Shown in pieces: positions 64 through 36,425 of a stretch of 64,000 nucleotides of DNA. Origin of the DNA: Desulfovibrio sp. Fe33. Its GTDB lineage: Bacteria; Desulfobacterota; Desulfovibrionia; Desulfovibrionales; Desulfovibrionaceae. The stretch's first letter is position 1. The number at the start of each line of letters is the position of its first letter. Where the stretch lies: NCBI RefSeq assembly GCF_028532725.1, contig NZ_JAQKGU010000009.1, forward strand, positions 62,001 to 126,000, given 5' to 3'. The translations under genes were made by a program, and so were the position numbers. The notes under the pieces were generated by a model. That model had not been told where the DNA came from. It searched no databases and saw nothing but the letters and a program-made list of their open reading frames with translations.

Positions 64-1110
64 ATGAATGCTCTTTACTCACTTCTGTTCGTCTTTCTCC
101 TGGTGTTGATCCCGTTGTTCGGGGTTGATGCGGCACACATGAGGACTTTCTTCGGTGTCTGCATCCCGACGACGGCGTTCATCATCTTCATTATCGGCTT
201 TGTATACAAAGTCGTCACCTGGGGTCGGAGCGCCGTGCCGTTCCGCATCCCTACAACCGGCGGACAGTTCAAATCCTTTGACCCCGAACTGTTCAAGCAG
301 AACAAGCTGGACTGTCCCCAGACCGGCGCTCAGACCTTCTTCCGCATGGTGCTTGAGGTCTTCGCGTTCCGGTCTCTGTTCAGGAACACCGCCGTGTCCC
401 TGCACGAGGGCAAGGACTACCCCGTAGTCGCCTACAAATCGAGCAAGTGGCTGTGGCTCTTCGCCATCACCTTCCACTACTCCTTTTTCATCATCGCCCT
501 GCGGCATCTGCGCCTCTTCCTCGAACCGATCCCGTTCATTCCCGTGGGCGCGCTCGAATTCGTGGACGGCATCCTGCAGATCGGCGCTCCGGTCATGTAC
601 CTGAGCGACCTCGGCCTGGTGGCCGGCGTGCTCCTGCTCATGGGCCGCAGGCTCGTCAACGCCAAGATCAACTACATCAGCTACGTCTCCGACTTCTTCC
701 CGCTGTTCCTGATCCTGGCCGTCGCCCTGTCGGGCATCTACATGCGTTACTTCGCCAAGGTCGACATCATCGCGATCAAGGAGTTGACCATGGGTCTGGT
801 GACGTTCCACTACGTCGTCCCCGAGACCGTCACCGTCTCCTTCTTCGTCCACGTCTTCCTGGTCAGCGTACTTATGGCGTACTTCCCGTTCAGCAAACTC
901 ATGCACATGCCGGGCGTCTTCCTGTCCCCGACCCGCAACCTGCCGAACGACTCTCGCGCCAAGCACCATGTGAACCCTTGGAACGATCCGAACATCAAGG
1001 CGCACGCCTATGCCGACTACGAGAAGGAATTCGGCGTGCCCATGGCCGAGGCCGGGCTGCCCCTGGACAACCCGGAGAACGGCGTGCCCAAAGACGAGGC
1101 CGAGGCCTAG
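64..1110 (+). CDS. dsrM: DsrM, cytochrome b-type membrane subunit of the DsrMKJOP complex
   Basis: Integral membrane subunit of the Dsr redox complex that passes electrons between the quinone pool and the cytoplasmic DsrK/DsrC side during dissimilatory sulfite reduction. The 348-residue product has a hydrophobic N-terminus and several further membrane segments resembling the NarI-type di-heme b domain, with histidines in membrane segments (for example HYSFFI near residue 138). The length fits the family. The start follows a GAGGTG ribosome binding site. It is first in the conserved order dsrM-K-J-O-P, which makes the assignment firm. Heme ligation is known for the family and was not tested here. 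Confidence 0.96.
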   Translation: MNALYSLLFVFLLVLIPLFGVDAAHMRTFFGVCIPTTAFIIFIIGFVYKVVTWGRSAVPFRIPTTGGQFKSFDPELFKQNKLDCPQTGAQTFFRMVLEVFAFRSLFRNTAVSLHEGKDYPVVAYKSSKWLWLFAITFHYSFFIIALRHLRLFLEPIPFIPVGALEFVDGILQIGAPVMYLSDLGLVAGVLLLMGRRLVNAKINYISYVSDFFPLFLILAVALSGIYMRYFAKVDIIAIKELTMGLVTFHYVVPETVTVSFFVHVFLVSVLMAYFPFSKLMHMPGVFLSPTRNLPNDSRAKHHVNPWNDPNIKAHAYADYEKEFGVPMAEAGLPLDNPENGVPKDEAEA

Positions 1111-1155
1111 GGTTCACCATCCGGTGATACTTTCTTCATTCGAGGAGATAAGAAT

Positions 1156-2826
1156 ATGTCCGACATTCCCAAAGCAGATGAGCTCTTCAAGAGCATAGAT
1201 TACAATCCGCCCGTGACCGGATGGATGGAAACCCCGGTAGACTTCTCGCCGGGCCATTGGTGTTACCCCGCCAAGCCCGAAAAGATCGCCTACATGGACA
1301 AGAAGCTGCCCGGCCTGTGGGGCGAGCCGCGTACATGGATGCCTTCCGACGCCGATTGGAAGCTGCCCCCCAACTGGAAGGAGACCGTGGTCAACGGTTT
1401 CCGCGAGCGGCTCAAGAAGTTCCGCTCCCTCCAGTTGTTCATGGACATCTGCGTGCGTTGCGGCGCTTGCGCCGACAAGTGTCACTACTTCATCGGCTCC
1501 GGCGATCCCAAGAACATGCCCGTGCTCCGCGCCGAGCTGATGCGCTCGGTCTACCGCGGCGAGTTCACCCTGGCAGGCAAGATCCTGTCCAAGTTCACCG
1601 GCTCCCGCGTCATGGAAGAGCATGTCCTGAAGGAGTGGTTCATCTACTTCTATCAGTGCACCCAGTGCCGCCGCTGCTCCCTGTTCTGCCCCTACGGCAT
1701 CGACACCGCGGAAATGACCATGATGGCCCGCGAGCTCATGCACCTGGTCGGCCTGAACACCAACTGGATCATGGAGCCGGTCTCCAACTGTAACATCACC
1801 GGCAACCACCTCGGCATTCAGCCCCATGCCTTCAAGGATATCGTGGACTTCATGGTCGACGACATCGAGGAAGTCACCGGCCGCCGGGTCAAGGCCCCGC
1901 TGAACGAGAAGGGCCACGAGATCCTGTTCATCACGCCGTCCGGCGACGTGTTCGCCGACCCCGGCATCTACACCTTCATGGGCTACCTGCTCCTGTTCGA
2001 CTATCTCGACCTGGATTACACCATGTCGACCTATGCGTCCGAGGGCGGCAACTTCGGCTCGTTCACCAACAACGAAGTCATGAAGAAGCTCAACGCCAAG
2101 ATGTACGCCGAGGCCGAGCGCCTGGGCTGTAAATGGATTCTCGGCGGCGAGTGCGGCCACATGTGGCGCGTGGTGCACCAGTACATGGACACCATGAACG
2201 GCGACAACCAGTGGTCCGGCATGACCACCCCGAAATCGCCCATCACCGGTACCGTGTTCGACACCGCGGCGGCCACCAAGATGCTCCACATCACCGAGTT
2301 CACCGCTGACCTCATCAAGCACAACAAGCTGAAGCTGGACCCCAGCCGCAACGACCACCTGCGCGTCACCTTCCACGACTCCTGCAACCCCGCCCGGGGC
2401 ATGGGCCTGCTGGAAGAGCCGCGCTACGTGCTCAAGCATGTGTGCAACAACTTCTTCGAGATGCCCCCCGCGACCATCCGCGAGCAGACCTTCTGCTGTG
2501 CGGGCGGCTCCGGCCTGAACACCGACGAGATCATGGAAATCCGTCTGCGCGGCGGCCTGCCCCGCGGCAACGCCCTGCGCTACGTGCAGGAAAAGCACGG
2601 CGTCAACCTGATGGCCTGCATCTGCGCTATCGACCGTGCGACCCTGATCCCGCTGGCCGATTACTGGGCTCCGGGCGTGACCATCGCCGGTACCCACGAG
2701 CTGGTCGCAAACGCCCTGGTTCTCGAAGAGGGCGAGGTCCGCACCATGGACATGCGGCAGGAACCCCTCCCCGGTTTCGAGGACGAAGAGGACGATTGGA
2801 CGCCCCCGAGCAAGGAGGATGCATAA
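1156..2826 (+). CDS. dsrK: DsrK, HdrD-like iron-sulfur subunit
   Basis: Cytoplasmic catalytic subunit of DsrMKJOP, related to heterodisulfide reductase HdrD and thought to reduce the DsrC trisulfide. Two 4Fe-4S motifs are visible: Cys99/102/105/109 and Cys168/171/174/178. The C-terminal half carries a CCG-type domain with HDSC at about 410 and the FCCAGG motif at 447-448, which in the family ligates the noncubane catalytic cluster. At 556 residues it is full length. An AGGAG sits upstream of the ATG. The stop is directly followed by dsrJ, so translation is probably coupled. Confidence 0.97.
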   Translation: MSDIPKADELFKSIDYNPPVTGWMETPVDFSPGHWCYPAKPEKIAYMDKKLPGLWGEPRTWMPSDADWKLPPNWKETVVNGFRERLKKFRSLQLFMDICVRCGACADKCHYFIGSGDPKNMPVLRAELMRSVYRGEFTLAGKILSKFTGSRVMEEHVLKEWFIYFYQCTQCRRCSLFCPYGIDTAEMTMMARELMHLVGLNTNWIMEPVSNCNITGNHLGIQPHAFKDIVDFMVDDIEEVTGRRVKAPLNEKGHEILFITPSGDVFADPGIYTFMGYLLLFDYLDLDYTMSTYASEGGNFGSFTNNEVMKKLNAKMYAEAERLGCKWILGGECGHMWRVVHQYMDTMNGDNQWSGMTTPKSPITGTVFDTAAATKMLHITEFTADLIKHNKLKLDPSRNDHLRVTFHDSCNPARGMGLLEEPRYVLKHVCNNFFEMPPATIREQTFCCAGGSGLNTDEIMEIRLRGGLPRGNALRYVQEKHGVNLMACICAIDRATLIPLADYWAPGVTIAGTHELVANALVLEEGEVRTMDMRQEPLPGFEDEEDDWTPPSKEDA

Positions 2827-3213
2827 ATGAAAATGTACAACGGATTTGCTATCGTCGCCGGGCTGGTCATCTTCTTCGCGATGCTGACCGCTCCCTTCGC
2901 GCTCGGCACCATGACCAAGCAGTACAAGGAACCCGAGCTCAAGCTGCCCGTGAACGAGAAGGAGTGCATCGAATCCACCGAGTACATGCGCACCAATCAC
3001 ATGCAGCTCTTGAACGAATGGCGCGACTGGGCGCTGCGTGACGGCAAGAGGACCTATACCAACCACGCTGGCAAGGAGTTCTCCATCTCCCTGCAGAACA
3101 CCTGCATGAAGTGCCACACCAGCAAGGCCGACTTCTGCGACAAGTGTCACAACGACGCGGGTGTCTCTCCCTACTGCTGGGATTGCCACGTTCAGCCGGA
3201 GGGTTTGAAATAA
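2827..3213 (+). CDS. dsrJ: DsrJ, periplasmic triheme cytochrome c
   Basis: Triheme cytochrome c subunit of DsrMKJOP, anchored by an uncleaved N-terminal hydrophobic segment (about residues 5-25) and facing the periplasm. Three CXXCH motifs are seen at Cys93-His97 (CMKCH), Cys104-His108 (CDKCH) and Cys117-His121 (CWDCH). The product of 128 residues is normal for the family, in which one heme has unusual His/Cys ligation. The stop codon overlaps the ATG of dsrO (TAATG). Confidence 0.96.
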   Translation: MKMYNGFAIVAGLVIFFAMLTAPFALGTMTKQYKEPELKLPVNEKECIESTEYMRTNHMQLLNEWRDWALRDGKRTYTNHAGKEFSISLQNTCMKCHTSKADFCDKCHNDAGVSPYCWDCHVQPEGLK

Positions 3214-3986
3214 TGAAGAACAGCAGAAGAACCTTCATCAAGCTTGCCGGTATCGCTGCCGCCGGTCTGGCCGTGGCCCCCAAAAAGGTCCTGGCCTCGA
3301 GCGGCGGACACTCCCCGGTCAAGGTCAATGCCACGGCCTCCCATGCGAAGCATTGGGCCATGGTCATCGACACCACCAAGCTGCACACTGCCGAAGCCAT
3401 CGACGAGCTGGCCAAGGTCTGCCACCACATCCACAACGTGCCCTCCATCGAGGGCAAGAAGGAAGTGAAGTGGCTGTGGCACGATACCTACGGCCATTCC
3501 TTCCCCGAGCAGGAGAACCCGCATCTGGCGGAAGAGGTTCACGAGCGCGTCTTCCCGCTTCTGTGCAACCACTGTGAGAATCCCCCGTGCGTGCGCGTCT
3601 GCCCCACCAAGGCGACCTTCCAGCGCCCGGACGGCATCGTGGCCATGGACTACCACCGCTGTATCGGCTGCCGGTACTGCATGGCGGGCTGTCCCTACGG
3701 CTCCCGCTCGTTCAACTGGGGCGATCCCCGGCTGAACCTGGATATGGCCAACCTGAACCCGGAGTTCCCCACCCGTATGCGCGGCGTCGTCGAGAAGTGC
3801 AACTTCTGCGTCGAGCGTCTGGCCGTGGGCAAGCAGCCCGCCTGTGTGGAGGCATCGAACGGCGCCATGTTCTTCGGCGATCTGAAGGATCCGGATTCCG
3901 AAGTCCGCAAGGTGCTTCGCGAGAAGTTCACCATTCGTCGTAAACCCTCGGCAGGCACTGAGCCCAGTGTTTACTACATCATCTAG
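3213..3986 (+). CDS. dsrO: DsrO, periplasmic ferredoxin-like iron-sulfur subunit
   Basis: Periplasmic 4Fe-4S electron carrier of DsrMKJOP that links DsrJ to the NrfD-type subunit DsrP. The 257-residue protein begins with a Tat signal peptide (NSRRTFIKLAG). It has several ferredoxin-type cysteine groups, including CNHCENPPCVRVC, CIGCRYCMAGC and CNFC, as in HybA/NrfC-like proteins. The start is the ATG overlapping the dsrJ stop, because it gives the twin-arginine motif at the very N-terminus; the upstream extension of the frame overlaps dsrJ and is not used. Confidence 0.95.
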   Translation: MKNSRRTFIKLAGIAAAGLAVAPKKVLASSGGHSPVKVNATASHAKHWAMVIDTTKLHTAEAIDELAKVCHHIHNVPSIEGKKEVKWLWHDTYGHSFPEQENPHLAEEVHERVFPLLCNHCENPPCVRVCPTKATFQRPDGIVAMDYHRCIGCRYCMAGCPYGSRSFNWGDPRLNLDMANLNPEFPTRMRGVVEKCNFCVERLAVGKQPACVEASNGAMFFGDLKDPDSEVRKVLREKFTIRRKPSAGTEPSVYYII

Positions 3987-3997
3987 GAGGACTCCGA

Positions 3998-5224
3998 ATG
4001 CTTGAATTAGCTCTCAAAGGCTCCAAGAGATACTACGGCTGGATCGCGTTCCTCCTGGTTCTCATTGGCATCGGTTCCACCGCCCTGGTGGACCAGTGGA
4101 TAAACGGCCTGACGATCACCGGCATGAGCCGCGACGTGTCCTGGGGATTCTACATCTCCCAGTTCACCTACCTGGTCGGCCTGGCCGCCTCCGGCGTCAT
4201 GATCGTGCTGCCGAACTACTTCCACTCGTATAAGACCAACAAGCACATGGTCATCTTCGGCGAGTTCATGGCCATCGCTGCGTGTATAATGTGCCTGCTG
4301 TTCATCGTCGTGGACATCGGGCAGCCCACCCGCATGATGAACATGATCTTCCATCCCACTCCGAACTCCATTCTGTTCTGGGATATGATCGTGCTCAACG
4401 GCTACCTGTTCCTGAACCTGCTCGTGGGCTGGACCTGCCTGCAGGCGGACCGTCAGCACCTGCCTCACCCGCAGTGGCTCAAGCCGTTCATCTACATCTC
4501 GATCATCTGGGCCTTCTCGATCCATACCGTGACCGCGTTCCTGTACCAGGGCCTGCCCGGCCGCCACTACTGGCTCACCGCCATCCTGGCCGCCCGCTTC
4601 CTGGCTTCCGCGTTCTGCTCCGGTCCCGCGATCCTGCTGCTCGTCATGATGATCACGGAGAAGTTCACCAGCTTCAAGATGGCCAAAAACGCCATTTCCA
4701 CGCTCGTGAAGATCATCGCCTACGCCATGTGCGTGAACATGTTCTTCTTCGCGCTGGAAATCTTCACCTCGTTCTACTCGAACATCCCGGGCCACATGCA
4801 CCCGATCCTTTACCTGTTCGAGCACGCGAGCTCCGGCCTGGTCACTCTGATGTGGACCTTCATCGCCTTTGCCGCGATCTCCATCACCCTGCTGGTGACC
4901 CCGCGCTTCCGCAACAACTACAAGCTGCTGCCCTGGACTCTCGGCATCCTGATCGTCGCGACCTGGATCGACAAGGGTCTTGGCCTGCTCATCGGCGGGT
5001 TCAACCCCACGCCGTTCGAGACCATCACCTCGTACTGGCCCACCGGCAAGGAACTCATGGTTTCCATGATGGTCTACGCCATCGGCGCCCTGGTGGTGAC
5101 GGTGCTCTTTAAGATCGCCACCGAGGTCAAGGCCGAAGTGGGTCATTCCCAGAAGCTGGACTGCGGTTGTTCCTCCGAGGACACCTGCGAGTGCGCTCCT
5201 GAGGAAGCCCCGGCCGAAGCCTAG
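3998..5224 (+). CDS. dsrP: DsrP, NrfD-family integral membrane subunit
   Basis: Polytopic membrane protein (about ten hydrophobic segments) of the NrfD/PsrC family that exchanges electrons with the quinone pool in DsrMKJOP. It is 408 residues long and starts 11 bases after dsrO behind an AGGAGG-type site. The last 25 residues form a soluble tail with a compact cysteine group (CGCSSEDTCEC) followed by an acidic Ala/Glu/Pro stretch. I do not know this tail as a standard part of the family. A strong terminator follows at about 5280, closing the operon. Confidence 0.95.
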   Translation: MLELALKGSKRYYGWIAFLLVLIGIGSTALVDQWINGLTITGMSRDVSWGFYISQFTYLVGLAASGVMIVLPNYFHSYKTNKHMVIFGEFMAIAACIMCLLFIVVDIGQPTRMMNMIFHPTPNSILFWDMIVLNGYLFLNLLVGWTCLQADRQHLPHPQWLKPFIYISIIWAFSIHTVTAFLYQGLPGRHYWLTAILAARFLASAFCSGPAILLLVMMITEKFTSFKMAKNAISTLVKIIAYAMCVNMFFFALEIFTSFYSNIPGHMHPILYLFEHASSGLVTLMWTFIAFAAISITLLVTPRFRNNYKLLPWTLGILIVATWIDKGLGLLIGGFNPTPFETITSYWPTGKELMVSMMVYAIGALVVTVLFKIATEVKAEVGHSQKLDCGCSSEDTCECAPEEAPAEA

Positions 5225-26349: not shown

Positions 26350-27855
26350 TTAGTCGGCCTGGGCCGGAACCTCGATTTCGGGGGAGCGGCTCTTGAAGAA
26401 GACGGGGATGTCCTTGCGGCCGAGGATGCTTGCACGCAGCTCCGATTCGGACAGCTTCGCCCACTCGCTCCTGTTGGAGAAGTAGAAGAAGACGCCCATG
26501 CCGACCCAGGAGACCATGCACCAGCGGGAAGCTTCGCTGATGTAGGCGGGGGAGCCGGGGATGAGGAGCAGCACGATGCACAGAACGGAGGCCACGGTGC
26601 CCATGGCGCAGCAGAACAGGCTCAGCGCCCGGTTCTCGATGCCCGTGCTGCCGAGGATGACGCGGCGGGCGGCAAGGCAGGAGAACAGGTAACCGATGCC
26701 GGTGCCCACGGAGCTCATGTCCACGATCCAGACGATGACGGAGCGGCCGGCGAAAGGCGTCAGAAGCACGATGGCGATGGTGAACAGGATGGCCTTGTAG
26801 GGGGAACGGTACTTGGGATGGATTTCGCCGAACCATGCGGGCAGGATGCGGCCGCGGGCCATGCTGAGCAGCAGGCGGGAGGTGGCGATGTAGAAGCCGT
26901 TGATGCCGGTGCAGACCGCGCCCATGACGGCGCAGGCAAGGATGACGGCGCCCATTTTACCAAAGGCCATGGCGGCGACTTCGCCGGTGGCCCAGGCGGT
27001 TCCGCCCGCGGCGCGCATGGTTTCCATCTTGGCCAGCATCTCGGGATAGGGGATGGCGATGCCGACGGCCAGCGTCACCAGGGCGTACAGCACCATGCCG
27101 CACAGGATGGCGATAATCATGAGGTTGCGGGCGCGGGAAGGTTCGAAGGTGAACTCTTCGGCGGCCTGCGGCACGGTGTCGAATCCCGCGAACAGGAAGG
27201 GGGAGATGGCGAAGATGATGAGGACGCAGGAGAAAGCGGAGCGGTGCTCGGCGAACAGCGGCAGCAGGTTGGAGGGTTGCGCGGTTTCCAGGGATGCGGC
27301 TCCGGTGAACAGGGAGGCGATGCCGATGACGAGCAGGAAGGTGAGAATCACCTGGAATTTACCCGCGAAGTTGGTGCCCCGGTAGTTCATCCAGCCGAAC
27401 AGGAGCGTGGCCGCTGTCATGAGCAGGACCTCGCCGGTGTACACATCCCATCCGGCGATCGAATACAGTGGGCCGAATTCGAAAACGCCCGGGAACAGGA
27501 ATCGGAAAATCAGGGCCAGGGCGGCGACGTCGATGCCGATGATGGCGACGTAGCCGAGCACGAGCGCCCATCCGCAGATGAAGGCCGCCGTCGGGCCGTA
27601 GCCGACATAGGCATATGCGAAGGCGCCGCCGGCGACCGGGGCGTATTTGATCATATAGCTGTAGCAGACAGCCACGAAACAGATGAGAAAGGCTCCGACG
27701 GTGAAGCCGATGAGGGTGCCGAGAACGCCGGCCTGCGGCAGGAACATGTCTCCGGGCAGTACAAAACATCCCCAACCGACGATGGACCCGAGGGCCAATG
27801 CCCACACCTGGGCCGGGGAAAGGGATTTATTCAGTTCCAACTGTTCTTGTGACAT
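26350..27855 (-). CDS. APC-family amino acid/organic cation permease
   Basis: A 501-residue membrane protein with about twelve to thirteen hydrophobic segments and the APC-superfamily N-terminal pattern (VWALALGSIVGWGCFVLP, then APVAGGAFAYAYVGYG). Family members import amino acids, polyamines or related amines. A TGGCAC-N5-TTGCT sigma-54 promoter lies about 280 bases upstream, matching those of the DUF4125 and glycyl-radical operons, so it probably imports the substrate used by that pathway. The ATG follows GAGAG. The actual substrate cannot be read from sequence. Confidence 0.85.
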   Translation of the reverse strand: MSQEQLELNKSLSPAQVWALALGSIVGWGCFVLPGDMFLPQAGVLGTLIGFTVGAFLICFVAVCYSYMIKYAPVAGGAFAYAYVGYGPTAAFICGWALVLGYVAIIGIDVAALALIFRFLFPGVFEFGPLYSIAGWDVYTGEVLLMTAATLLFGWMNYRGTNFAGKFQVILTFLLVIGIASLFTGAASLETAQPSNLLPLFAEHRSAFSCVLIIFAISPFLFAGFDTVPQAAEEFTFEPSRARNLMIIAILCGMVLYALVTLAVGIAIPYPEMLAKMETMRAAGGTAWATGEVAAMAFGKMGAVILACAVMGAVCTGINGFYIATSRLLLSMARGRILPAWFGEIHPKYRSPYKAILFTIAIVLLTPFAGRSVIVWIVDMSSVGTGIGYLFSCLAARRVILGSTGIENRALSLFCCAMGTVASVLCIVLLLIPGSPAYISEASRWCMVSWVGMGVFFYFSNRSEWAKLSESELRASILGRKDIPVFFKSRSPEIEVPAQAD

Positions 27856-28441: not shown

Positions 28442-28532
28442 ATGTCCCGCTCGTTCTTTTTTTCATTTGCCGAAACGGCATGGCTTTTGCCCAGTTGCGG
28501 TGCTTTCCCCAACGATTACAATAGGAGGAATG

Positions 28533-29087
28533 ATGAACGAACAATATCGTGAGAATCTTATCGGCGACATCATTGAACGCGAACTGGAGATGTTTCTCGC
28601 GGTCAAGAACCGGGGCGGCACATCGCAGTGCCAGGAACGCCCGGAATCCTTTCGCCTCATGCGGGAAATCTCCCATGGGGTCCTGTCCGACGCCTTTCTG
28701 GAATCCTATCTGGGCGATCTGAAGGCCGCCGCGGAACAGGGGCGAAACTTCATGACCGAGAAATACGCGCTCATGGAAGGGCTGATTCCTCCCCTCAGCG
28801 ATTCCCCGGTCATCAGGGATATCGTTGCCGCGGAGAGCGAGTGGCGCAAGGAAGTGGCCGCCCAGTTCCCGCGGTGCATTCATCCCGAGGGGCATCAGGG
28901 CTTTTGCCTCTATCTCGGCTGCGAACTCCAGACCTATTCCTCGGCCACTCTCGAAGCCTATTGCGCGTGCGTCGAAGCCGCGCAGCGGGAACACCGCAAT
29001 CTGGTGCGGGAGCGCTACGAGCTGTTGATGCGCAAGCTGGGTCACGAGTCTCTGGCGGCGTGCGAGGCCGGACTCGCGCACCGCTGA
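28533..29087 (+). CDS. DUF4125 family protein
   Basis: A 184-residue soluble protein that matches the DUF4125 pattern: IIERELEMFLAVKNRGG near the N-terminus, then CQERPESFRLMR and FLESYLGDLKAA. Function unknown; no catalytic motif is obvious, though several cysteines (in RCIHPEGH, CLYLGC, CAC) lie in the C-terminal half. Two ATGs follow AGGAGG; the second, at 28533, has the better spacing. It forms a pair with the TauE exporter and sits under a sigma-54 promoter in the glycyl-radical locus. Confidence 0.8.
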   Translation: MNEQYRENLIGDIIERELEMFLAVKNRGGTSQCQERPESFRLMREISHGVLSDAFLESYLGDLKAAAEQGRNFMTEKYALMEGLIPPLSDSPVIRDIVAAESEWRKEVAAQFPRCIHPEGHQGFCLYLGCELQTYSSATLEAYCACVEAAQREHRNLVRERYELLMRKLGHESLAACEAGLAHR

Positions 29088-29107: not shown

Positions 29108-29842
29108 ATGTTCGATCCCACTCATCTCCTTGTCTTCGGGTTGTGGCTCGTCGGCGGATTCGTCTCCGGCGTCAGCGGCATCGGCGGGGCCATGGTCGCG
29201 GTTCCGGCGGCGGCCATGTTCATACCCATGCATGAGCTGATTCCGCTCAGTTGCATCCTGAACGTGGTCATGGACGGCTGCATCGCCGCCGCACATTTCC
29301 GCCACTGCCGCGTGTCCGCGCTCTGGCCCATGCTCGCCGGTTCCCTGCCCGGGGCATTCGTCGGCCTATTCATCCTCAAATTCGTTCCCGGAGCCATATT
29401 GCAGGGGGCTGTGGGCGCGTTGCTGCTTTACTATGTATATTGGCAGCGGACCTTTCGCGTCACCGAGGTGCATCGGGAATCGTGGTCGCACGGCGGGGCG
29501 GCCGGATTCGGCGCGGGCCTGCTCGGCACGGCCATATCCTTCGACGGTCCGCCCGTCGGCGCGTATGGGCTGTATGTGGGCTGGTCCCCCAGGACCTTTC
29601 TTGGCACCTTGGGCGTATTCTTCGTGATCCGGGGCACCATGACCTGCGTGCTGCAGGCCGGAGCGGGACTCTACACTTCCGCCGTTATCGAGTACGCAAT
29701 GTACGGGATTCCGGCGACCATGCTGGGAACCCTGTGCGCCTTTCCGATCACCAGGCACGTCAACCAGGACACGTTCCGGCGAGTGCTTCTGGCCATCATC
29801 CTGCTGGCCGGAGTGGTCTGCCTGGTGCGCTCCCTGTTCTGA
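29108..29842 (+). CDS. TauE/SafE family exporter
   Basis: A 244-residue membrane protein with about eight hydrophobic segments and the duplicated TauE/SafE motifs (GFVSGVSGIGGAMVAVPA and GFGAGLLGTAISFDGPPVGAY). Family members export sulfite, sulfoacetate or related anions. It starts 21 bases after the DUF4125 gene and shares its sigma-54 promoter, so it probably removes a product of the local pathway. Sulfite is an attractive but unproven guess. Confidence 0.85.
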   Translation: MFDPTHLLVFGLWLVGGFVSGVSGIGGAMVAVPAAAMFIPMHELIPLSCILNVVMDGCIAAAHFRHCRVSALWPMLAGSLPGAFVGLFILKFVPGAILQGAVGALLLYYVYWQRTFRVTEVHRESWSHGGAAGFGAGLLGTAISFDGPPVGAYGLYVGWSPRTFLGTLGVFFVIRGTMTCVLQAGAGLYTSAVIEYAMYGIPATMLGTLCAFPITRHVNQDTFRRVLLAIILLAGVVCLVRSLF

Positions 29843-29896: not shown

Positions 29897-31390
29897 CTAA
29901 AATCTGTCTTCTATGCCGAGCTGCTTGATCTTGTAGCGCAATCCGGCCGCGGTGATCTCCAGGATGCGGGCGGCCTTTGCCACATTGCCTCCAGTGACCC
30001 GCAAAACATTGCACAGGCATTCCGCTTCGTACCGCTGCATACATTGCTTGAGCGGGATGACGCTGTTTCGTTTGACCGTGCGGTAATCGAAATAATTCTG
30101 GCTTGGCCCGGCGTTTTCGTCCGGCCCGGGCGTTTCCGCCATGGGTTCCGCGGACTCCGCCACGCAGGTGGTCTCGCACGCCTCGCGGAAGTGGCGCGGC
30201 AGGGTCCGGCAGTCCATGGAATGCTGATCGCCCAGCATGGCGAGGCCGCCTTCGATGACGTGTTGCAGCTCCCGGATGTTTCCCGGCCAGTCGTAATCCT
30301 GGAATATCCGGAGCACTTCGGGGGTCACTTCGATGGGCGCGCCGTCCTGCGCCTGTTTTGAGCGCTCGATGAATGTGCGGACCAGCAGGGGGATGTCCCC
30401 TTTCCTGTCGCGCAGGGGCGGCACGGCGAGGCCCACCACGGCGAGCCGGTAATACAGGTCGCTGCGCAGGATGCCGTTGCCCACGGCGGTCAGCGGAGCT
30501 TCGTTCAGGATGCTGATGACCCGCACGTCCACCGGGATTTCCTTGCTTGAGCCGAGGCGGCGCACCCGTTTTTCCTGGAGTACGCGCAACAGCTTGGCCT
30601 GGAGCCCCAGCGGCATGGAGTTCAATTCGTCCAGGAGCAGCGTGCCGCCGTTGGCCGCTTCGAACAGGCCGGGCTTTTCCGGGGCGTCGGTGTACGCCCC
30701 CTTGGAGGTGCCGAAGAGGATCGCCTCAAGCAGATTTTGGGGGATGGCGGCGCAGTTTTCGGCAACGAAAGGCTCGTCGCGCCGGTCGCTCCCGGAGTGG
30801 ATGGCCTGGGCGAACAGTTCCTTGCCGGTGCCGCTTTCACCCCAGATCATGACGTGGGACGACGCTCTCGCCGCTGTCCGGGCTTCGGCCAGCACGTCCG
30901 CCAGGCTGTCGTCCTTACCTATGATGCTGTCGAACGTGTAGTAGGAGTAGGAGCGCTCGGCCGGTTTTTTCGGACGCCGCTTGGAGTCGTTCAGGGTGGC
31001 CGAGCCGGTCCAGATGGTGAAGGCGATGACCCCGTCCTTCCTGCCGTGATCGTACAGGGGGAAGAAATCCGAGACCGTGCTGGCGAGGTAGTTGTTGGTG
31101 GTCTTGTAGAAGTAGCTTTTTTTCAGGATCGGCCTGCTGCTTCGCAGGCATTCGATGGTGGGGATGCATTCCAGTTCATGGGGCACATACAGCTTTGTGA
31201 TGTGCTGTCCCCTCACCGGCAGGCTGGTGAAGCTGTCGGCGCGCCGTTGGATGGGGTTCATATATTCACAAATGCCGTTGGCGTCGACAACGGCTACGCC
31301 GACTCCGAGGTCGTCCCATATGGCGGTCATGGCCGGGGTCAGGACGCTTGCCCGGCTGACATCGGTGAATTTCTCTTCGGAAAAAAGCAA
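29897..31390 (-). CDS. Sigma-54-dependent transcriptional activator with PAS domain
   Basis: A 497-residue enhancer-binding protein. It has an N-terminal PAS-like sensor (about 20-135, LGVGVAVVDANGICEYMNPIQRR), then an AAA+ domain with Walker A GESGTGKE, a GAYTDA variant of the sigma-54-contacting GAFTGA loop, Walker B GGTLLLDELNSM and the R-finger region, and a C-terminal Fis-type helix-turn-helix (NVAKAARILEITAAGLRYKIKQLG). The likely start is TTG at 31390, five bases after GGAGG; a TTG at 31408 is also in frame. It is flanked on both sides by sigma-54-type promoters and is their probable activator. Confidence 0.92.
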   Translation of the reverse strand: MLFSEEKFTDVSRASVLTPAMTAIWDDLGVGVAVVDANGICEYMNPIQRRADSFTSLPVRGQHITKLYVPHELECIPTIECLRSSRPILKKSYFYKTTNNYLASTVSDFFPLYDHGRKDGVIAFTIWTGSATLNDSKRRPKKPAERSYSYYTFDSIIGKDDSLADVLAEARTAARASSHVMIWGESGTGKELFAQAIHSGSDRRDEPFVAENCAAIPQNLLEAILFGTSKGAYTDAPEKPGLFEAANGGTLLLDELNSMPLGLQAKLLRVLQEKRVRRLGSSKEIPVDVRVISILNEAPLTAVGNGILRSDLYYRLAVVGLAVPPLRDRKGDIPLLVRTFIERSKQAQDGAPIEVTPEVLRIFQDYDWPGNIRELQHVIEGGLAMLGDQHSMDCRTLPRHFREACETTCVAESAEPMAETPGPDENAGPSQNYFDYRTVKRNSVIPLKQCMQRYEAECLCNVLRVTGGNVAKAARILEITAAGLRYKIKQLGIEDRF

Positions 31391-31481
31391 ATTTTCCTCC
31401 CCCCGCAAAAACGTCTGCGGCTTGTCATGCTCGCCTATAAACTCATTGGCAGCACCTTAGAAAGAGAAAAATTTTTTTACA

Positions 31482-31614: not shown

Positions 31615-31691
31615 AGTGCGAAAAAGAACAAGCGAACGAACTTCACATATTAATCCGATTCAGAACATCATCAAGAGAACAGGAGATGGAA

Positions 31692-34142
31692 ATGACGACT
31701 CTTTCCGTTGTGAATAAGACCGACAATCAGGCTGAGGCCAAGGGCTACGGCATCAATTGGGATACCGCCGAAAAGCGGGCCAAGGAACTCAAGGACTACT
31801 TGATGGCCGCGCCGCAGGTGATGGATCCGGAACGTCTGAAGTTCCTCCTTGAAGTATACGAAAAGCATCAGGGCGAGCCGGTTGTCTACATCCGCGCCAA
31901 GCTGCTGGAGCGCGTCCTGACCGGCAAGAAGATTTTCCTGGACGGCAACCCCCTGGTCGGCACCCTGACCGGTGTCCGCGCGGGCGTTTACGCCTACCCC
32001 GAGTGGAACGTTTCCTGGATCAAGGAAGAGATGCAGATGGCCAAGATGGCCTCCCTGGGCGAAATGAAGATTCCCGCCGAGACCCAGGAACTGCTCGAAA
32101 AGACCTACAAGCTCTGGAAGGGCCGCACCTGCGTCGACCAGAACAACACGATGTACAAGGAAAAGTACGGCGTGAACGCGAAGCAGTACGCCAAGGCCGG
32201 CATGTACTACGAGAACGTCTCCGTCGCTTCCGGTTCCGGCATCGCCGATTACGGCCTGGTTCTGAACAAGGGCCTGCGCTACCTCATCGACGACGTCAAG
32301 AAGCGTCTGGCCGAGTGCCCGACCACCCTGGCCGACAGGGACCGGATCGACCTGTACCGCTCCATGCTCATCACCTTCGACGCCGTCATCGCCCATTCCC
32401 ATCGCTACGCCGATCTGGCCGAGCAGACCGCAGCCGGGGAATCCGATCCCAAGGTCAAGGCCGAGCTGCTTGAGATCGCCGAAATCTGCCGCCGCGTGCC
32501 CGAGCATCCGGCCCGCAACTTCCGCGAAGCCATCCAGTCCTTCTGGTTCATCCACCTCTGCGTGGCCACCGAGCAGATGGCCTGCGCCGTGTCCCCCGGC
32601 CGTTACGGCCAGTACATGTATCCCTTCTTCAAGAAGGACATCGACGAAGGCAACCTGACCCGCGAGCAGGTCGTGACCCTGCTCAAGTTCCAGTGGATTC
32701 GCCACCTCGAACTCGGTGAGTACCAGGGCAACTCCTACGCCCTGACCCTGTCCGGCCACACCGGCCAGTCCATCACCATCGGCGGCGTGGACGCCAACGG
32801 CGAAGACGCCTGCACCGAGCTGGAGGAACTGCTCCTCGAGACCCAGATCCAGATGCGGAGCATCCAGCCCACCCTGACCCTGCTGTACCATCCCAAGATC
32901 AAGGATTCCTACATGCAGAAGGTCGTTGAGTGCATCCGCGGCGGTTCCGGCCAGCCCCAGATCCTGAACAACAACGTGGTCATCCAGCGCACCCTGGCCC
33001 GCTTCGCCAAGTATCCCGACGGCATCACCCTGGAAGACGCCCGCAACTGCGGCAACTACGGCTGCGTGTCCACCGGCGTTTGCGGCAAGGGCAGCTTCAT
33101 CACCCAGGAAGACCAGCCCTGCCTCGCCAAGGTCATCGAACTCGTGCTGAACAACGGCAAGTGCCCGGTCACCAAGAAGCAGGTCGGCGTCGAGACCGGC
33201 GATCCCACCACCTTCGAGACCTTCGAAGACCTCTACGACGCGACCAAGAAGCAGTTGGACAACCTGTTCCACATCTCCCGCGCCCACTCCGACCTGAGCC
33301 AGATGGCCCGCCTCCAGGTGGTCCCGAGCGTCTTCCGCTCCGCCATGTACGACGGCTGCATTGAAAAGGGCATGTGCGAAGAGGCGGGCGGCACCCGTTA
33401 CCCGCAGGTCAACCCGATCATGACCGCGGGCATCGACGCCGCCAACTCCCTGCTGGCCGTCAAGCACCTGGTCTTCGACACGAAGAAGATCACCATGGAG
33501 CAGCTCCTCGAAGCCATCAAGGCCAACTTCGAAGGGTACGAGGATATCCGCAAGATGTGCTTCGACGCGCCCAAGCACGGCAACGACTACCCCGAGGTGG
33601 AGAAGTTCGTGCAGCGGTTCTACCGCGACGTGGACACCATCCACAGCTCGCAGGGTCCGGACTGCTTCGGCCAGCGCACTCCGCTGGACGCGTACTCCCT
33701 GTCCTACCACAACTACTTCGGCTCCATGATGGGCGCGCTGCCCAACGGCCGCAAGGCGGGCGTCGCCCTGACCGACGGCTCCGTCTCCGCCATGCCCGGC
33801 ACCGACCATGAAGGCATCACCGCCCTCATCAAGTCCGGCGCCGAGGCCATCGACACCGTCCGTTACGGCGCGAACCACTTCAACGTGAAGGTCAACCCGC
33901 AGGTCATCGAGGGCCCGGCCGGGGCTCGTACCCTGATCTCCCTCATCAAGACCTACTGCGACTTCGGCGGCTCCCACATCCAGTTCAACTGCGTCAGCTC
34001 CGAGACCCTGAAGGACGCCAAGGCCCATCCGCAGGAATACCCCGATCTGGTCGTCCGCGTGGCAGGCTTCAGCGCCTACTTCACCCGTCTGGACTGCGGC
34101 GTGCAGAACGAGATCATCAAGCGCACCGAATACAAGAACTAG
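31692..34142 (+). CDS. Glycyl radical enzyme of unassigned substrate (Cys-Val-Ser active-site variant)
   Basis: An 816-residue pyruvate-formate-lyase-type enzyme, in the length range of diol dehydratase, choline lyase and isethionate lyase. The glycyl radical motif RVAGFSAYF is at the C-terminus, with radical Gly792. The thiyl cysteine is Cys458 in NCGNYGCVSTGVCG. The residue two after it is Ser460, whereas dehydratases, CutC and sulfonate lyases have Glu (Cys-X-Glu) as general base. Typical framework motifs (LNNG, TGDP, GALPNGRKAGV) are intact, so the fold should be normal. ATG 31692 is preferred over 31686 because AGGAG abuts the latter. Neighbours (activase, TauE exporter, APC permease) suggest uptake of a small organic compound, C-X cleavage and anion export. 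Substrate unknown. Confidence 0.88.
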   Translation: MTTLSVVNKTDNQAEAKGYGINWDTAEKRAKELKDYLMAAPQVMDPERLKFLLEVYEKHQGEPVVYIRAKLLERVLTGKKIFLDGNPLVGTLTGVRAGVYAYPEWNVSWIKEEMQMAKMASLGEMKIPAETQELLEKTYKLWKGRTCVDQNNTMYKEKYGVNAKQYAKAGMYYENVSVASGSGIADYGLVLNKGLRYLIDDVKKRLAECPTTLADRDRIDLYRSMLITFDAVIAHSHRYADLAEQTAAGESDPKVKAELLEIAEICRRVPEHPARNFREAIQSFWFIHLCVATEQMACAVSPGRYGQYMYPFFKKDIDEGNLTREQVVTLLKFQWIRHLELGEYQGNSYALTLSGHTGQSITIGGVDANGEDACTELEELLLETQIQMRSIQPTLTLLYHPKIKDSYMQKVVECIRGGSGQPQILNNNVVIQRTLARFAKYPDGITLEDARNCGNYGCVSTGVCGKGSFITQEDQPCLAKVIELVLNNGKCPVTKKQVGVETGDPTTFETFEDLYDATKKQLDNLFHISRAHSDLSQMARLQVVPSVFRSAMYDGCIEKGMCEEAGGTRYPQVNPIMTAGIDAANSLLAVKHLVFDTKKITMEQLLEAIKANFEGYEDIRKMCFDAPKHGNDYPEVEKFVQRFYRDVDTIHSSQGPDCFGQRTPLDAYSLSYHNYFGSMMGALPNGRKAGVALTDGSVSAMPGTDHEGITALIKSGAEAIDTVRYGANHFNVKVNPQVIEGPAGARTLISLIKTYCDFGGSHIQFNCVSSETLKDAKAHPQEYPDLVVRVAGFSAYFTRLDCGVQNEIIKRTEYKN

Positions 34143-34272: not shown

Positions 34273-35166
34273 ATGAGCCAGGGAATGATTTACAACATAC
34301 AGCGCATGTCCATTCACGACGGGCCCGGCCTGCGCACCACTGTTTTCCTCAAGGGCTGTCCCCTGAGCTGCCTGTGGTGCAGCAATCCGGAGTCGCAGAA
34401 GGCGACTCCGCAAATGCTGCTTTTCGCGGACCTGTGCATCGGCTGCGGAGCCTGCGCCCAGGCCTGCCCCAACGGGGCCGTGGTGGAAAAGGACGGCAAG
34501 TTCGGCCGGGACCTGGAAAAATGCACCAACTGCGGCGAATGCGTGGACTCCTGCCCGAGCAAGGCCCGGGAGTTGTCCGGCAAGACCATGACCGTGGATG
34601 AGGTCATGGAGGTCGTACGCAAGGACTCCCTGTTTTACGAGAATTCCGGCGGCGGCGTGACCTTCGGCGGCGGCGAGCCCACTGCGGGCGGTCAATTCTT
34701 CCTCGACATGGTCCGGGCGGCCAAGGACGAGGGCTATCATGTGACCGTGGACACCTGCGGTTACTGTCCCGAGGAGCGCTTCGACAAGGCCATCGAGCTG
34801 GCGGACCTGTTCCTGTTCGACTGCAAGCACATGGACCCGGAGCGGCACAAGGCGCTGACCGGCGTGGACAACGGAATCATCCTGCGCAACATGCGCGCCG
34901 CGCTCACGTCCGGCAAGGAAGTGCGCATCCGTATGCCGCTTATGCCCAACCTCAACGACTCCGATGAAAATATCGCGGCCATGGCGGATTTCTTCAAGGA
35001 ATTCGGCCGCAACGAGATCGAGATAATGCCGTGTCACGCCTTCGGGCGCAACAAGTACGCGGCTCTCGGCTGGCAGTACCGCATGTCCGGCGAATACGAG
35101 CCGGAACAGTTGGAAGCGGTCCGGCAGCGGTTTGTCGACCACGGCCTCAAGTCCGTGATCGTCTAA
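34273..35166 (+). CDS. Glycyl-radical enzyme activating protein (radical SAM)
   Basis: Generates the glycyl radical on the upstream enzyme using S-adenosylmethionine. The 297-residue protein has the radical-SAM triad Cys29/Cys33/Cys36 in GCPLSCLWC, followed by two ferredoxin-type 4Fe-4S groups (CIGCGACAQAC and CTNCGECVDSC), as in activases of the non-PFL subgroups. The GGGEPT SAM-binding motif is present. It lies 130 bases after the enzyme gene with a hairpin between, and its stop (TAAGGAG) supplies the ribosome binding site of the next gene. Confidence 0.94.
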   Translation: MSQGMIYNIQRMSIHDGPGLRTTVFLKGCPLSCLWCSNPESQKATPQMLLFADLCIGCGACAQACPNGAVVEKDGKFGRDLEKCTNCGECVDSCPSKARELSGKTMTVDEVMEVVRKDSLFYENSGGGVTFGGGEPTAGGQFFLDMVRAAKDEGYHVTVDTCGYCPEERFDKAIELADLFLFDCKHMDPERHKALTGVDNGIILRNMRAALTSGKEVRIRMPLMPNLNDSDENIAAMADFFKEFGRNEIEIMPCHAFGRNKYAALGWQYRMSGEYEPEQLEAVRQRFVDHGLKSVIV

Positions 35167-35177
35167 GGAGCTCGGCC

Positions 35178-35711
35178 ATGATGCATCTTCTCCCCGATGA
35201 GGAACGGCTTGTCGCCGAATCCGGTTTGGCGGCCCGGCAGCTCTATGGAAACGGCCCCATGTGCTGTTCCGAGGCCGTGCTCGCCGTAATCAACCGGGAA
35301 TTCGACGGCGGGTTGTCCACGGACCTGGTGACGGCCCTTGCCAAGGGATTCTGCGGCGGCATCGGCGATGCGGGGTGCCTCTGCGGGGCGCTCTCGGGAG
35401 CGGTCATGGCTCAAAGCCTGATTCTGGGCAAGGATTCCGGGAACGTTTCCGACGATCAGGTGCGGAAGGCGTCCAAGGAATTGCACGATCGATTTCTCGC
35501 CCGCTACGGCAGCGTCTGTTGCCGCGTACTGAGCAGGGAGCGCGATCCGAATTCGGATTCCAAGGGAGTGTGCCTCGATTACGTGGAGGCCGCGGCGGGG
35601 ATGTGTGTCCGCCTCCTGCTGGAGTCCTCCGAGCGGCGGGATGGCGAGGCGATTCACGGCCGCCGCGCAGAAGGAACCTGCGGAAGCGGGCTCAAGCCCG
35701 CAATAATGTAA
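35178..35711 (+). CDS. C_GCAxxG_C_C family redox protein
   Basis: A 177-residue protein with the family pattern of spaced cysteines: NGPMCCSEAV, GFCGGIGDAGCLCGALSGAVMA, and further Cys in YGSVCCRVL and KGVCLDYV. The family is often found in anaerobes beside electron-transfer or selenium-related genes; its biochemistry is poorly known. ATG 35178 follows AAGGAG at seven bases. It is translationally close to the activase and probably supports its redox or iron-sulfur chemistry, which is inference. Confidence 0.82.
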   Translation: MMHLLPDEERLVAESGLAARQLYGNGPMCCSEAVLAVINREFDGGLSTDLVTALAKGFCGGIGDAGCLCGALSGAVMAQSLILGKDSGNVSDDQVRKASKELHDRFLARYGSVCCRVLSRERDPNSDSKGVCLDYVEAAAGMCVRLLLESSERRDGEAIHGRRAEGTCGSGLKPAIM

Positions 35712-35740: not shown

Positions 35741-36028
35741 ATGTTTGAAGTGACCGTTCCCGAAGAGATGCTGGAAAAGCTGCGCGACATGCTGGACGAC
35801 GAAGAGAGCTGCGTTCGCTTGCGTGAATACAAGACGGGCGGCGGCTGCCATTCGAAAATCGTGCTCGGTCTGGGCATAGACGAACTTGACGAGGATGAGG
35901 ACGAACGCGTGCAAGTGGAGGATGTGCCCTTCATCGCCGAAAAGGACTTCCTCCTCAAACACGGCAGGAAGTACACGCTGAGCTTCAGCGACAAGAAGGA
36001 AGTCGTGCTGACGCCCGCGGGCGAATAG
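35741..36028 (+). CDS. HesB/IscA-like protein, cysteine form
   Basis: A 95-residue acidic protein resembling the HesB/IscA family in fold pattern (MFEVTVPEEMLEKL, then SCVRLREYKTGGGCHSK). Cys24 and Cys36 are the candidate metal ligands; the C-terminal CGCG pair of classical IscA is missing. It is followed by a close paralogue in which Cys36 is replaced by an in-frame TGA. A role in iron-sulfur or selenium handling for the glycyl-radical activase is inferred from position. Start after GAGGATAAGAAT. Confidence 0.8.
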   Translation: MFEVTVPEEMLEKLRDMLDDEESCVRLREYKTGGGCHSKIVLGLGIDELDEDEDERVQVEDVPFIAEKDFLLKHGRKYTLSFSDKKEVVLTPAGE

Positions 36029-36134: not shown

Positions 36135-36425
36135 ATGTTTGAACTGACCGTTCCCGAAGAGATGCTGGATAAGCTCCGGGACATGCTGGAGGACGAGGAC
36201 GAGGAAAGCTGCATTCGTCTTCGTGAATACCAGGTCGGCGGAGGCTGACACGCCAAGATCGTGCTCGGTCTGGGCATCGATGAACCGGATGAGGATGAAG
36301 ACGCGCGTATCGAAGTGGCGGATGTTCCCTTTATCGCCGAAGAGGACTTTCTCACCAAATACGGCAAAAAATATTCGCTGAGTTTCGGCGAGAACAAGGA
36401 AGTCGTGCTGACCCCCGCGGCGTGA
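36135..36425 (+). CDS. HesB/IscA-like selenoprotein (in-frame TGA at codon 38)
   Basis: Reads as 96 residues if TGA at 36246-36248 is decoded as selenocysteine. The sequence on both sides aligns closely with the upstream paralogue: MFELTVPEEMLDKLRDML before, and HAKIVLGLGIDEPDEDED after, with TGA exactly at the Cys of GGGCHSK. The frame stays open for 58 codons to a matching C-terminus (KEVVLTPA), so this is not decay. A SECIS-like hairpin lies just downstream of the TGA. HesB-like proteins are a known prokaryotic selenoprotein family, and sulfate reducers commonly use selenocysteine. Standard gene callers would split or miss it. Confidence 0.85.
36246..36275 (+). promoter_or_regulatory. Selenocysteine TGA codon and SECIS-like hairpin
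   Basis: TGA at 36246-36248, then GCC-A-AGA (36252-36258) can pair with TCT-G-GGC (36269-36275), leaving an apical loop that contains GG at 36267-36268, 19 bases after the TGA. Distance and loop GG fit the loose bacterial SECIS consensus. Confidence 0.65.

Follow-up and report, generated by a model that had tools for sequence, protein, structure and literature searches.

What reaction can be expected of a glycyl radical enzyme (GRE) that retains its radical framework and lacks the glutamate beside its thiyl cysteine? The question is raised by a gene of the sulfate-reducer-type bacterium Desulfovibrio sp. Fe33 (31692..34142, + strand), located in the window analysed here, that is, the whole stretch of 64,000 nucleotides in which all coordinates are given. 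The gene encodes a base-less, Cys-Val-Ser type GRE of 816 aa (818 if the start is 31686), and its segment 33030-33110 lies within a single open frame that reads ...EDARNCGNYGCVSTGVCGKGSFITQED.... The Cys-Val-Ser codons (33063..33071, +; Cys codon 33063, Ser codon 33069) specify the thiyl Cys460 and Ser462, and Cys-Val-Ser-Thr (CVST) occupies the place where most GREs carry Cys-X-Glu. Residue numbers of the GRE (Cys300, Cys460, Ser462, Asp668, Gly794) count from the ATG at 31686; from the ATG at 31692, which stands behind AGGAG, the thiyl cysteine is Cys458. The LNNG, TGDP and NGRKAG motifs are all present, as is the glycyl motif RVAGFSAYF with the radical site Gly794 (codon 34065..34067, +), and the original prediction of a Cys followed by Val-Ser in an intact GRE framework is thus confirmed by reading the open frame and these motifs. 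With a PFL-like domain (PF02901, 533 bits) and a C-terminal glycyl motif (Gly_radical PF01228, 103 bits), the protein is a GRE with a PFL-like barrel, and the 50 best PDB fold matches listed by Foldseek for its structure model are all GREs. The model has a mean pLDDT of 83, with segments 176-179, 351-356 and 789-804 below 50, and parts of its active-site loops are of low confidence.

A Glu two residues after the thiyl Cys is the mark of the base-dependent eliminases (PD, GD, CutC, HypD, IslA and HpsG), and the window GRE has Ser462 instead. This residue aligns with the Glu column of CutC, HypD, diol dehydratase and IslA, a column that is Glu in 21/21 hand-chosen comparison GREs. CVST is found in all 31 distinct sequences of at least 1396 bits, the window included. 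The next sequence down (L146; 70% identity, 1350 bits) carries CVTT, further relatives carry CVGT, CVAT and CVAS, and more distant ones CVST (L129, L130), CIQT, CVQN, CVQS and CVGS; L133 and L134 retain the Glu (CVEM, CVEI). The gene is under purifying selection, with pN of 0.013-0.080 versus pS of 0.155-0.554 in four GRE pairs, and this, together with the 31/31 conservation, excludes CVST as a product of chance or sequencing error. The predicted absence of the Glu therefore stands, not as a private trait of this gene but as the mark of a deep clade.

That clade emerges from trees drawn with a midpoint root, of 45 rows first and then of 40, seven clade or diol-type rows having been taken out of 47. 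A 100/100 branch separates the Glu-less rows with S, G, A, T or Q from HypD, CutC, IslA, HpsG, the diol-dehydratase-like rows, L133/L134, L055, L165, L075, L169 and PDB 7e7l. The comparison with characterised GRE clades that had been proposed as a check thus places the window GRE apart from CutC, IslA, HpsG, HypD and the diol-dehydratase-like enzymes. Since the S/G/A/T/Q cousins form one clade, a single loss of the Cys-X-Glu base within it is the simplest reading and, given the midpoint root, not more. Glu is also absent across the branch, from L169 (C-V-V) and from 7e7l, which is labelled hydroxyphenylacetic acid decarboxylase, carries C-V-L at the motif and which we take to be AAD; across the GREs, therefore, the Glu has been lost more than once. 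Two of these outlying rows are of interest in themselves. L169:295-2646 is another Glu-less GRE (GCVVPH), which both trees put beside CutC, away from the clade and at the end of a long branch, and L055:7961-10384 is a GRE relative with VASYMA for VAGYSA, that is, with Ser at the glycyl position, for which noncanonical aminoacyl radical enzymes offer a comparison (PMC11528403).

From the missing Glu the original prediction had moved to a different chemistry, on the premise that this residue is the catalytic base of the eliminases. The residue is indeed essential in IslA, where E470Q had no activity (PMC8473560), and in IAD, where E502Q was inactive (PMC9248008). As a guide to chemistry, the premise proved incomplete: the decarboxylases HPAD and IAD both carry the Cys-X-Glu Glu (PMC6181972, PMC9248008), and two other characterised decarboxylases appear to lack it, namely 7e7l and PAD, whose Gln at the Glu place is gathered from the wording "with Gln to mimic PAD" (PMC9248008). 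A different chemistry for the window GRE is an inference from sequence. The companion claim, that a textbook substrate is unlikely, is borne out by a score below the curated cut-off of every GRE model, at 510 bits against 678 for subfamily TIGR01774, 490 against 1100 for the trans-4-hydroxyproline dehydratase model NF043068 (HypD), and 489 and 387 against 1100 and 1150 for the IAD and HPAD models NF033718 and NF033715.

Likenesses to characterised enzymes are correspondingly partial. The hydroxyproline dehydratases (HypD 6vxc; N-methyl-4-hydroxyproline dehydratases 8iof and 8id1) come nearest in fold, with 8iof and 6vxc topping the Foldseek list at ~30% identity, and HypD has a similar Cys-loop run (GCVxTGxxGK) and LNNG...TGDP; unlike the window GRE, these enzymes have Cys-X-Glu, and where HypD carries an Asp, six positions ahead of the GR motif, the window GRE has Cys300. 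AAD (7e7l, C-V-L) and PAD/PhdB (C-X-Q) share the apparent lack of a carboxylate beside the thiyl, but AAD lies outside the clade and no aromatic-substrate gene was recognised near the window GRE. IslA and HpsG share the GRE fold and also occur in this bacterial family, IslA in the same genome; of Glu470, R189, Q193 and R678 of IslA, however, the window GRE keeps 0/4.

The pocket was compared by alignment between 29 hand-chosen S/G/A/T rows and 21 hand-chosen others at a 90% threshold, with the C-X-Gln rows and L137 left out. Kept in at least 28/29 clade rows and rare in the 21 others are Cys300, Gly308, Ser356-Gly-His358-Thr-Gly360, Gln423, Gln425, Arg551, Asn676, His731 and Phe795. The Gly308 column is Asp in 21/21 other GREs, and the Gly360 position is Phe or Trp in 17/21 of them, an aromatic cap that the S/G/A/T clade is without. 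Cys300 (codon 32583..32585, +), a second Cys of this clade, is present in 29/29 chosen S/G/A/T rows and absent from the C-X-Gln rows L131, L136 and L108. Its place lies six positions ahead of the GR-motif Arg (which is His in L160) and is taken by Asp in the HypD-like L160, Thr in CutC rows and, by the same count, Thr in IslA (L002) and His in a diol-type row; the match to the HypD Asp and the IslA Thr is a count from the GR motif, the MAFFT columns of both being shifted by one. HypD Asp278, CutC Thr334 and IslA Thr312 are discussed as residues of strand beta2 (PMC8473560). The sulfonate of the IslA substrate is bound by R189, Q193 and R678 (PMC6453916, PMC8473560), which correspond to S182, a gap and D668 in the window GRE (D668 read from the printed alignment), and the beta1 site, where IslA binds sulfonate, shows no Arg. 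Besides the Glu, then, other substrate-handling groups are replaced, as judged from aligned positions.

The genes around the GRE were examined against a census of 50 versus 50 GRE frames of at least 600 aa on loci of at least 11 kb, split at a score of >440 bits; these loci overlap and repeat, and the >440-bit set includes the C-X-Glu outgroup. Within it, 22 "main-clade" frames score >1300 bits, and their neighbours were counted within 8 kb. Downstream of the GRE, the activase gene is followed by one for a C_GCAxxG_C_C protein and then by a tandem pair of ErpA-like genes. The activase (34273..35166, +), a radical SAM protein with a ferredoxin-like insert (TIGR02494, 372 bits, cut-off 174), provides the GRE with a cognate partner and recurs in 22/22 main-clade frames; so does a sigma-54-dependent regulator, which in the window lies divergently upstream (29897..31408, -) and, among curated models, matches PrdR best while scoring below that model's cut-off. 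The C_GCAxxG_C_C putative redox protein (35178..35711, +; PF09719, with TIGR01909 over cut-off) recurs in 4/22 frames. Further upstream are a TauE/SafE-family permease (29108..29842, +; PF01925, 108 bits; 17/22 frames), a DUF4125 protein (28530..29087, +; PF13526, 179 bits; 8/22) and an APC-family amino acid permease (26350..27855, -; PF00324/PF13520; 15/22). Among the window genes scanned beside the GRE, no catabolic enzyme was recognised, only transporters, the regulator, DUF4125 and redox/cluster proteins; the product would therefore feed into central metabolism or be released from the cell. Transporters vary among sub-clades (APC, BCCT-like, TRAP and TauABC-like, partly named by eye; the BCCT-like one lies near the 70%-identical L146, also by eye), and substrates may thus differ between them. 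Searched against the PDB, a TRAP ligand-binding protein gave many weak matches that pointed to no ligand, and the ABC binding protein gave no match.

Several features of these and related loci may be recorded alongside. Near some such GREs (L033, L094, L104, L148, L152, L153), DUF4125 is seen again, as is a protein that by eye resembles DUF169; the operon for limonene ring cleavage in a bacterium that has a fumarate-adding GRE likewise encodes a DUF4125 protein (PMC12583861). At L141 and L142, C-X-Gln GREs alternate with acyl-CoA dehydrogenase-like genes, and L141 also has a 2-oxoacid oxidoreductase-like pair (by eye). At the start of the window (64-5224, +) five genes read by eye as dsrMKJOP in a genome that gave no dsrA match, perhaps through an assembly gap, a withheld stretch or true loss.

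The GRE subfamily was found here in Desulfobacterota. In the family sample, 20/149 genomes carry a relative of at least 700 residues (E<=2.4e-242, 48-100% identity), a set in which the G092 GRE ends at a contig end and that of G127 has two TGA in frame. In the class sample 54/348 genomes match at E<=1e-160, and in the phylum sample 11/395 at E<=1e-150, two of them with C-X-Glu relatives (G480, G720); each of the three samples contains the window's own genome. A scan of genome contigs with six short peptide patterns, by which alone phyla beyond Desulfobacterota were covered, returned 68 loci. Of these, 55 share 25-32% identity; the other 13 share 76-84%, and every one of them comes from a record with the name Pseudodesulfovibrio, Desulfovibrio, Mailhella or Desulfovibrionaceae. 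A second Glu-less GRE (L154, CVAS) lies ~52 kb from the CVST GRE of Desulfovibrio piger ATCC 29098 (L024), the placement of L154 in D. piger being inferred, and a Mailhella-type CVST copy (L013, L032) is split over two overlapping frames, with two TGA in the search frame, as either a pseudogene or an assembly error.

The most distinctive companions of the GRE are the two small ErpA/IscA-like proteins. The Cys form (GGGC; 35741..36028, +) reaches 134 bits in NF033940 (cut-off 65) and has an IscA-like structure model, and the second (36135..36425, +) reaches 138 bits in NF033940 when its in-frame TGA (36246-36248), at the conserved Cys position, is read as U. That TGA likely encodes selenocysteine: among 70 distinct ErpA-like proteins, 35 contain a single internal TGA, at or beside the conserved Cys position, and 35 contain none, and the genome encodes SelB (389 bits, cut-off 242). 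Against this, the short hairpin after the TGA is unremarkable, with folding z-scores of -1.94 and -0.73 (+0.41 in the Cys copy), mean folding energy after the TGA is -10.3 (n=35) versus -9.4 in Cys forms (n=27), Rfam detected no SECIS, and the 64-kb window contains no tRNA-Sec. The fold is IscA-like, with IscA/SufA chains matched at TM 0.57-0.70 (by query length), prob 0.99-1.00 and E 0.002-0.03; the best structure match of the model is YneR (E 5e-4), and a profile matches ErpA HI1723 at E=1.5e-4. The C-terminal Cys-X-Cys, which presumably supplies the ligands of the A-type Fe-S carriers (IscA/ErpA/SufA), is absent from the 35741..36028 protein and from all 14 aligned ErpA-like rows. Both proteins score over the cut-off for NF033940, the ErpA-related model. 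HesB-like selenoproteins are an established family (PMC1794560, PMC13188914) that occurs in Desulfovibrio (PMC1794560), so that a selenoprotein of this kind is no novelty.

What appears unreported is their tie to a GRE. In the family sample, NF033940 is over cut-off in 19/149 genomes, comprising 19/20 GRE carriers and 0/129 others (Fisher 4e-23). The lone carrier without it is G095; among the 129 non-carriers, G064 has a 32-bit match below cut-off and G027 a GRE fragment, the addition of which gives 21 carriers, 19 with the partner. In the phylum sample it is over cut-off in 5/395 genomes, the same five whose GRE is at least 56% identical; the six more distant carriers fall below cut-off (G348 at 32 bits), and matches of 32-33 bits also turn up in three genomes that are not on the GRE list. 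At the level of loci, ErpA-like genes lie within 4 kb of 39/50 GRE frames of >440 bits versus 0/50 lower-scoring frames; these loci overlap, and the genome-level test is the cleaner one. A limited literature search found no report linking the ErpA-like family to a GRE, and in their available parts the selenoproteome papers PMC1794560 and PMC13188914 make no mention of "glycyl radical".

Taken together, we tentatively favour, at a probability of roughly 0.42 and thus with low confidence, the view that the enzyme is active, belongs to a GRE subfamily not yet characterised, and would cleave an imported acid of amino-acid-like or zwitterionic character without the help of a base, decarboxylation being the first candidate. 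The activase would generate the Gly794 radical, which would pass to the Cys460 thiyl and on to the substrate, a relay expected because the protein belongs to the GRE family; the thiyl would take a hydrogen (or an electron) from the imported acid. Since no base stands beside the thiyl to deprotonate a hydroxyl, the ketyl route of the dehydratases, CutC and IslA is less likely, and the substrate radical would break without hydroxyl deprotonation, most likely by loss of CO2 and secondarily by base-free C-N or C-S cleavage. Decarboxylation is placed first by analogy, because the decarboxylases PAD and AAD (7e7l) appear to be Glu-less; it is an analogy only, as 7e7l stands outside the clade on a long branch, and HPAD and IAD decarboxylate with the Glu in place (PMC6181972, PMC9248008). 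The lack of an Arg at the beta1 site and the acidic Asp668, a possible moved carboxylate, also count against this reading. The ErpA-like protein may be a dedicated helper, supplying a cluster to the activase or protecting or resetting the radical centre through its Cys/Sec. It is improbable, if conceivable, that its role is more intimate, in a two-component seleno-radical enzyme of base-less GRE and IscA-fold partner whose selenol would reach the radical site or whose Sec/Cys would hold substrate or product as a seleno/thio adduct.

Other accounts of the missing Glu must be weighed against this reading. An ordinary eliminase could obtain its carboxylate from elsewhere, for example from Asp668 on beta8, a residue aligned with IslA Arg678, which reaches the substrate. 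The Asp668 column is acidic in 29/29 clade rows (D 23, E 6) and in 0/21 others (G, R, A or N), and on this count we raised our estimate for a moved base slightly, within the range of the unlikely, and lowered that for the favoured reading from 0.45 to 0.42. Still, HypD 6vxc carries Asp at the same column in a pairwise alignment, and other groups that serve glycerol dehydratase in acid/base roles also seem gone from the window GRE; moreover, the beta8 position is described as too far from the substrate in HypD and CutC (PMC8473560). A C-S lyase acting on a sulfonate other than isethionate (e.g., an amino sulfonate), with the sulfite serving respiration, is a somewhat poorer prospect. It would accord with the frequent TauE/SafE permease, with TRAP or TauABC-like transporters beside second-tier relatives (named by eye; one DctP searched against the PDB), and with dsrA over cut-off in 18/23 genomes searched, two of these having only C-X-Glu relatives. 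It sits poorly with the loss of the three IslA sulfonate-binding residues and with the organism's own genome, which has a separate IslA (L002) and, besides lacking a dsrA match, only dsrB matches far below cut-off; G001, a GRE carrier given as 100% complete, likewise has no dsrA match. The CVST gene is carried by D. piger ATCC 29098, which we take to be the same strain as DSM 749. With taurine as the only acceptor on offer, D. piger DSM 749 made no use of it (PMC6453916). A lyase for taurine or isethionate itself is weakened by this result, by the loss of the IslA ligands and by the separate IslA.

Two further accounts lie at the margins. Radical addition of the fumarate-adding type, which we hold to be quite improbable, draws on a cavity perhaps enlarged by the change of the aromatic cap to Gly and on the acyl-CoA dehydrogenase-like genes beside the C-X-Gln relatives L141/L142. 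Near CVST GREs, however, no CoA-activation gene was recognised (partly by eye); position +15 from the Cys, by residue count and not by structure, is Glu475 where BSS has Arg508, a residue that binds fumarate (PMC11194802); and Foldseek ranks BSS 41st and lower, with hydroxyproline dehydratases first. The BssD profile matched nothing, controls included, and is uninformative for BssA. A degenerate or regulatory GRE without catalysis would fit the absence of a residue whose substitution inactivates IslA and IAD (PMC8473560, PMC9248008), but it is hardly credible for a gene with pN far below pS, a retained thiyl Cys and glycyl Gly, and an activase within 8 kb in 22/22 frames.

For the GRE family as a whole, Cys-X-Glu serves as a means of guessing function, and a deep clade without the Glu represents a reaction class to be tested, which may well be a chemistry that no enzyme has so far been assigned. 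This clade occurs in records named Desulfovibrio piger, Mailhella and Pseudodesulfovibrio. The near one-to-one link between the GRE and the ErpA-like proteins offers something concrete to test, and through it this (seleno)protein family would gain a physiological partner.
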